DNA of 64,000 bases from Thermoanaerobaculia bacterium (lineage in GTDB: Bacteria > Acidobacteriota > Thermoanaerobaculia > Gp7-AA8), in the NCBI GenBank assembly GCA_017883205.1, contig JADGNZ010000003.1, positions 62,001-126,000 on the forward strand, read 5' to 3'. How positions within the stretch are numbered: position 1 is the first letter of the stretch; each line of letters starts with the position of its first letter. A program made the translations under genes and the position numbers. Under the pieces are notes generated by a model. It searched no databases and had not been told where the DNA came from. It worked only from the letters and a program-made list of their open reading frames with translations. Positions 4,701 through 5,637 of the stretch are shown one piece after another.

Positions 4701-5446
4701 AGCGCGCAGTTGATGCCGGCGGCGAGAAGGTTGGCGTGCGAGATCGAGTTCCAGCACGCTTCCACGGTCTGGCCTGACAGCGTGCGGCCCGACGCGTCGG
4801 TGATCGTGATCGAGGCGATGATCGGAAGGCGGACGCCGGTGTCGGCGAAGTACTTCTCGATCGCGAAAAGCGCTGCCTTGATGTTGAGCGTATCGAAGGT
4901 CGTCTCCGGCATCAGGATGTCGGCGCCGCCGTCCACCAGACCGCGTGTCTGTTCGTAGTAGGCATCGACCAGCTCATCGAACGTGACTCCACGAAATGCA
5001 GGATTGTTCACATCGGGCGAGAGCGAGGCCGTGCGGTTCGTTGGGCCGAGGGAGCCGGCGACGAAGCGGGGGTGCTCGGGAGTTGCGTACGCGTCGCACG
5101 CCTTTCGCGCGAGCCCGGCCGCGGCCTTGTTGATGTCGTAGGAGTACTCGACGAGGTCGTAATCTGCGAGCGAGATCGCCTGCGCGTTGAACGTGTTGGT
5201 CTCGATGATGTCGGCGCCGGCCTCGAGGTATTGCCTGTGGATCGATTCGACGACGTCGGGGCGCGTCAGACAGAGGATGTCGTTGGCTCCTCGGAGGTCG
5301 CGCGGATGCGCAGCAAACTGCACACCGCGGAAGGCCGCTTCGTCGAGCCGGTAACGCTGGATCATCGTCCCCATCGCGCCATCCAACACGAGGATGCGGC
5401 GATCGAGCAGCTCACGAAGTTCAGCAGTACGGTCCGGTTGCGCCAT
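1772..5446 (-). CDS. metH: Cobalamin-dependent methionine synthase
   Basis: MetH transfers a methyl group from 5-methyltetrahydrofolate through cob(I)alamin to homocysteine. At 1224 residues it is almost the length of the E. coli enzyme. Domains in order are: homocysteine-binding barrel (start [11 protein letters not shown]; zinc motif GGCCGTTP near 308-315), pterin-binding barrel ([10 protein letters not shown] near 358), cobalamin module with the axial-His motif DVHDIGKN near 750, and a C-terminal SAM-dependent reactivation domain. I chose ATG 5446 because GGGAG lies 5 nt upstream. A longer frame from a TTG at 5464 would start inside the leader terminator. The leader carries a SAM-II-like aptamer and terminator, so SAM feedback is expected. 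Confidence 0.97.
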
Positions 5447-5457
5447 CGATTCTCCCG

Positions 5458-5490
5458 AAAACAAAAAGCCCCGCGGAAATTGCGGGGCTG
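5458..5490 (-). terminator. Rho-independent terminator in the metH leader
   Basis: On the minus strand GCCCCGC (5488-5482), loop AATTTCC, GCGGGGC (5474-5468) is followed by TTTTTGTTTT. It lies between the SAM-II-like aptamer and the metH ribosome-binding site, so it can only act as a leader attenuator for metH. Confidence 0.9.
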
Positions 5491-5518
5491 AAAATCGGCG
5501 TCGGAACGCGGACCACTG

Positions 5519-5574
5519 CCGGCTCTTTAGCTTTTTTTAACCTGGTTGCAAGCAGCCCCGCAAATCAGTCCAGG
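5519..5574 (-). promoter_or_regulatory. SAM-II-like riboswitch aptamer upstream of metH
   Basis: Read on the minus strand, the leader has P1 arms CCTGG (5574-5570) and CCAGG (5545-5541). Between them is ACTGATTT, then a loop segment and CTTGCAA, and after the second arm comes TTAAAAAAAGCTAAAGAGCC. CTGATTT, TTGCAA and GCTAAA are the conserved blocks of the SAM-II H-type pseudoknot, in the right order. AGCC at the 3' end can pair with GGCT in the loop to form P2. SAM-II aptamers are known upstream of methionine and SAM genes, which fits metH. The loop segment GCGGGGCTG (5561-5553) is exactly complementary to the terminator 5' side CAGCCCCGC (5490-5482), giving an antiterminator that excludes both P2 and the terminator. 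Confidence 0.87.
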
Positions 5575-5637
5575 AAGTCGGAGGGTACGGCAGGCGGCGG
5601 AAGGTTGTCAAACGGCGCTGCCGCCTCTCGCCACGAG

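Follow-up and report, generated by a model that had tools for sequence, protein, structure and literature searches.

As judged from its sequence, the leader of metH in the 64,000-nucleotide stretch of acidobacterial DNA analysed here (the window) carries a SAM-II-type riboswitch, for which SAM binding is predicted. Very likely this riboswitch works on metH as an OFF switch, through transcription attenuation with an antiterminator based on the loop of the P1 hairpin, and transcription would probably stop at high SAM. The observations behind this reading are the homology to SAM-II, the gene context, the terminator, a promoter, and a conserved and covarying complementarity between loop and terminator. 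Because the arrangement recurs throughout an order, matched pairing exceeds shuffled pairing, and a U-A/C-G swap is present, a SAM-off attenuator with a loop antiterminator is well supported. The comparisons also favor, with less assurance, the view that SAM-II has been rewired in this one Acidobacteriota order, the P1 loop alternating between the P2 3′ strand and the terminator arm; a loop-swap would then replace the usual tail-swap, and P1 possibly stays intact in both states.

Layout and probable SAM-II identity of the metH leader

The leader lies at window positions 5574–5458 of the minus strand, where a SAM-II aptamer, an intrinsic terminator, a Shine-Dalgarno sequence and metH follow one another in the 5′ to 3′ direction (Table 1). 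The original prediction had placed the SAM-II blocks and 5 bp P1 arms here, and all are present on this strand. The AGCC of P2 is separated by 30 nt from the terminator, which spans 5490–5458 (CAGCCCCGC-aatttcc-GCGGGGCT, with the RNA 3′ arm GCGGGGCU) and has an 8 bp stem and a U-rich tail.

Table 1. Features of the metH leader in window coordinates.
Feature	Position	Strand	Basis or remark
metH, cobalamin-dependent methionine synthase, 1224 aa	1772..5446	-	ATG at 5446; NCBIfam NF007024 1980 bits, TIGR02082 1674 bits
Shine-Dalgarno GGGAG	5452..5456	-	sequence
Terminator 3′ arm GCGGGGCT and U-tract	5458..5474	-	terminator prediction
Terminator 5′ arm CAGCCCCGC, also antiterminator 3′ strand	5482..5490	-	terminator prediction, pairing tests
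P2 3′ strand AGCC	5521..5524	-	sequence and relatives
Conserved block GCTAAA, preceded by a seven-A tract	5526..5531	-	covariance models and relatives
P1 3′ arm CCAGG	5541..5545	-	sequence and relatives
Conserved block TTGCAA	5546..5551	-	covariance models and relatives; as CTTGCAA 5552-5546
P1 loop GCGGGGCTG (RNA: GCGGGGCUG)	5553..5561	-	P2 5′ strand and antiterminator 5′ strand
P2 5′ strand GGCT, within P1 loop	5557-5554	-	
Conserved block GATTT	5562..5566	-	covariance models and relatives' alignment
P1 5′ arm CCTGG	5570..5574	-	sequence; pair swaps in relatives
-10-like box TACCCT, 18-nt spacer from -35, ends 7 nt upstream of P1	5582..5587	-	sequence and relatives
-35 box TTGACA, leader's own promoter	5606..5611	-	sequence and relatives

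Several features point to SAM-II as the class of the element. First, a covariance match to SAM-II is found over the full model length with two Rfam models, SAM-II (RF01726, 38.0 bits) and SAM_alpha (RF00521, 33.1 bits), with E values of 6e-6 locally and 2.7e-5 genome-wide, but both scores fall below the gathering cut-offs (44 and 36, respectively), and an Rfam scan of the window at gathering score gives no matches. Second, the window leader is the only SAM_alpha match in the whole 6.4-Mb genome (E 2.7e-5), and the SAM-II model finds it together with one further copy, located 5′ of a homocysteine S-methyltransferase/MTHFR (MetF) gene (NF006396); both downstream genes are methionine/SAM genes. 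Third, a clade model (R1) built from the leaders of 34 relatives scores both copies in the source genome at 81 bits with no other significant match, and is found in 19/19 genomes of the order, including one (G011) absent from model building, and in 0/130 others of the class. Genomes of the order usually have two copies of the element, upstream of metH and of the homocysteine methyltransferase/MetF gene.

The core blocks GAUUU, UUGCAA and GCUAAA are nearly invariant among the 34 relatives. P1 is a 5 bp helix with 98.7% of cells paired, and its outermost pair swaps between G-C and C-G in 13 of 30 distinct relatives. P2 is short: nearly every row keeps three pairs, GGY:GCC, which for the most part do not covary. 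The 4 bp GGCT:AGCC version proposed originally holds in the window, but its fourth pair (U-A) is present in only 4/30 distinct rows and is rejected as a general feature. There is a very slim chance that drift has given the aptamer a different ligand from SAM, such as SAH or a related metabolite, as the sub-threshold Rfam scores and the known change of ligand among SAM-I aptamer variants (PMC10853860) might suggest; against this, GATTT, TTGCAA and GCTAAA are all intact in the window and methionine synthase genes fit SAM feedback. In four leaders (L091, L241, L137 and L125) otherwise invariant aptamer sites deviate (TTGCAA to TTTCAA, GATTT to GGCTT, GCTAAA to GCCTAAA), and these may be errors, decay or altered ligand binding.

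The promoter is conserved. At least about two thirds of the 34 relatives have an exact TTGACA 16–18 nt upstream of a -10-like hexamer, several more match TTGACA at 5/6 positions, and the -10 ends 6–9 nt upstream of P1. A generic promoter scan of the window leader lists none because the -10 is weak, and the promoter is recognised by comparison of relatives. Since it is conserved so close upstream of P1, P1 would start at or near +1, and the predicted transcription start is at P1 or a few nucleotides before it.

Complementarity between the P1 loop and the terminator

An intrinsic terminator is present in 31 of the 34 leaders of the order, and its relation to the P1 loop has several features. First, the original prediction described a perfect complementarity of 9 bp between loop and terminator in the window; the complementarity is real but is 11 bp long (UUGCGGGGCUG/CAGCCCCGCAA; also TTGCGGGGCTG/CAGCCCCGCAA) with the flanking TT at 5563-5562 counted. 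When the loop is fixed and the downstream 79 nt are dinucleotide-shuffled, at least 9 bp arise in 0.8% of shuffles and at least 11 bp in 0.05%. Second, the loops of the order are almost always GGGG-Y-Y-G and the terminator arms R-G-CCCC. Third, the duplexes that the loops form with the terminator arms of their own leaders average -16.2 kcal/mol, compared with -15.0 kcal/mol for permuted pairs (31 leaders; 1 of 2001, p=5e-4); relatedness inflates this permutation test and thinning corrects it partly, the excess being kept when each genus and gene is represented by a single leader (p=4e-4). It is also seen in metH leaders alone (p=4e-4) and is not significant in homocysteine-methyltransferase leaders alone (p=0.13), because loops and arms hardly vary in that group. 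Fourth, the second-to-last base of the loop (position -2) covaries with the arm: U is found with A in 5/5 cases, and C is matched by G in 21 cases and by A in 2 (Fisher p=2e-4), the U-A version occurring in four genera. By the matched-pair test and this covariation the antiterminator overlaps both aptamer and terminator, and the mutual exclusion of P2 plus terminator with the antiterminator, as originally proposed, recurs in relatives with compensatory change. Finally, when the terminator 3′ arm is left out the minimum free energy (MFE) structure contains the loop:terminator helix in 27/31 leaders (L132, L128, L110 and L115 have no antiterminator in this pre-terminator fold), and when it is included the terminator forms in 22/31.

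The leader of G011 has the loop GGGGCC and the terminator arm GGCCCC, and in one leader (L134) loss of the GGGG loop goes along with loss of the terminator. The metH leader of another genome (L130, genome G007) lacks the terminator and the metH start codon relative to its relatives, and this gap may be a real deletion or an assembly collapse at the hairpin.

The single-strand MFE of the whole window leader is unremarkable (z -0.92), and the evidence is therefore comparative. This value and the sub-threshold window score could be taken to mean that there is no switch at all and that a chance match lies beside an ordinary terminator. Such a reading is strongly disfavored, to the point of being scarcely credible, since the element is conserved throughout the order at two methionine genes and its promoter, aptamer and terminator keep their register.

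In the attenuation mechanism that we propose, P2 is weak by itself, so that at low SAM the G-rich P1 loop would be free to capture the nascent 5′ arm of the terminator and permit read-through into metH. At high SAM, the ligand would close the P2 pseudoknot, with the loop held by the GCC located 3′ of GCUAAA, and the terminator 5′ arm would pair with its own 3′ arm, stopping transcription just upstream of the Shine-Dalgarno sequence. We infer SAM binding, the direction of the response and the kinetic competition between these pairings, and the copy at the homocysteine methyltransferase/MetF gene would act in the same mode. It seems unlikely that the element instead acts on translation, with P2 or an alternative fold hiding the Shine-Dalgarno sequence and the hairpin serving as a constitutive terminator or processing site. 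Such a case has been reported for the metA leader of S. meliloti (PMC9373788), and in the full-length MFE structure 5′ nucleotides base-pair with the Shine-Dalgarno region; however, the Shine-Dalgarno sequence is located about 65 nt 3′ of P2, past the terminator, and the match of loop and terminator is conserved.

Choice of antiterminator strand in different groups

An attenuator could also be built with the P2 3′ strand or aptamer core (the AGCC region) as the antiterminator strand, the loop complementarity being incidental. This wiring fits other groups well: the P2 3′ strand or core pairs better with the terminator in 47/49 terminator-bearing SAM-II leaders of other Acidobacteriota, where GCUAAANAGC pairs with terminator GCUNUUU and matched pairing exceeds permuted pairing (p=5e-4). 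The same strand (GGCCGGG, with arm CCCGGCC) is the better partner in 20/24 alphaproteobacterial leaders, although that call is weaker because loop and tail are near-palindromic there. For the order it is quite improbable and is rejected, since in 31/31 leaders the terminator arm pairs far more strongly with the loop (median -15.8 kcal/mol, compared with -6.7 kcal/mol for the P2 3′ strand) and the P2 3′ strand has no matched-pair excess with the arm. With the loop preferred throughout the order and the 3′ strand elsewhere, the order thus appears to have retained the aptamer and switched the antiterminator strand.

Several variants are seen outside the order. By eye, two or three leaders from further families (L163/L194, L177, L183) look loop-wired too. 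In most leaders of the set L141–L169, mainly of family f34, AAACAGC follows GCU and the terminator hairpin contains GCUGUUU, and the aptamer core therefore seems to be the antiterminator strand there. Tandem SAM-II aptamers, mostly with a terminator each, are present in L178, L180, L186, L187, L188 and L194 of other Acidobacteriota families, the last located by eye 5′ of a metK-like gene. In two Gemmatimonadetes records (L036, L067) SAM_alpha matches that exceed the cut-off lie close to metH-like genes, and one of them immediately precedes metH. Among the nearest Bacteroidetes metH genes, the four tested (L003, L009, L011, L016) have SAM-I upstream, not SAM-II.

Comparison with known SAM-II systems

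SAM-II expression platforms are, to our knowledge, little studied. The host group and the attenuation layout were both originally regarded as unusual for SAM-II, and both points carry less weight than was then given to them. In a sample of the phylum, 52/396 genomes have SAM_alpha matches, and SAM-II is thus ordinary in Acidobacteriota. Terminators were remarked upon when SAM-II was discovered (PMC1273637) and are the commonest SAM-II platform in alpha- and betaproteobacteria (PMC2258182, PMC1273637, PMC9481103); attenuation at S. meliloti metZ is backed by sRNA data (PMC9373788), and tandem SAM-II elements with terminators are known (PMC9481103). The modestly new part is the strand-swapped wiring, which seems to be unreported: a literature search found no description of an acidobacterial SAM-II or of a loop-strand antiterminator, itself weak evidence of absence. 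The loop-wired and tail-wired designs are a compact natural pair on one aptamer class in one phylum, so the effects of wiring on kinetics and dynamic range are directly testable. The Rfam cut-offs, in addition, leave the SAM-II switches of an entire acidobacterial order undetected.

The order's element shares with alphaproteobacterial SAM-II leaders with terminators (RF00521; PMC1273637, PMC2258182; metZ, PMC9373788) the P1 hairpin, the P2 pseudoknot, the blocks GATTT, TTGCAA and GCTAAA, a promoter just before P1, a terminator before the gene, and an association with methionine genes. It differs in using the loop rather than the P2 3′ strand, and in its targets, which are metH and the homocysteine methyltransferase-MetF gene as opposed to metA, metX, metY and metZ (mainly metY, metA and metX; PMC4239095). 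The Bacteroidetes long-loop form (RF01726) is the best-scoring Rfam model and has the same A-rich junction (AAAAAAA-GCUAAA), but its model is without the conserved G-rich loop of the order's element. The leaders of the other Acidobacteriota families (L141–L196) come from the same phylum and combine a SAM-II aptamer with a terminator at partly the same genes, but they use the GCUAAANAGC:GCUNUUU antiterminator and sometimes carry tandem copies.
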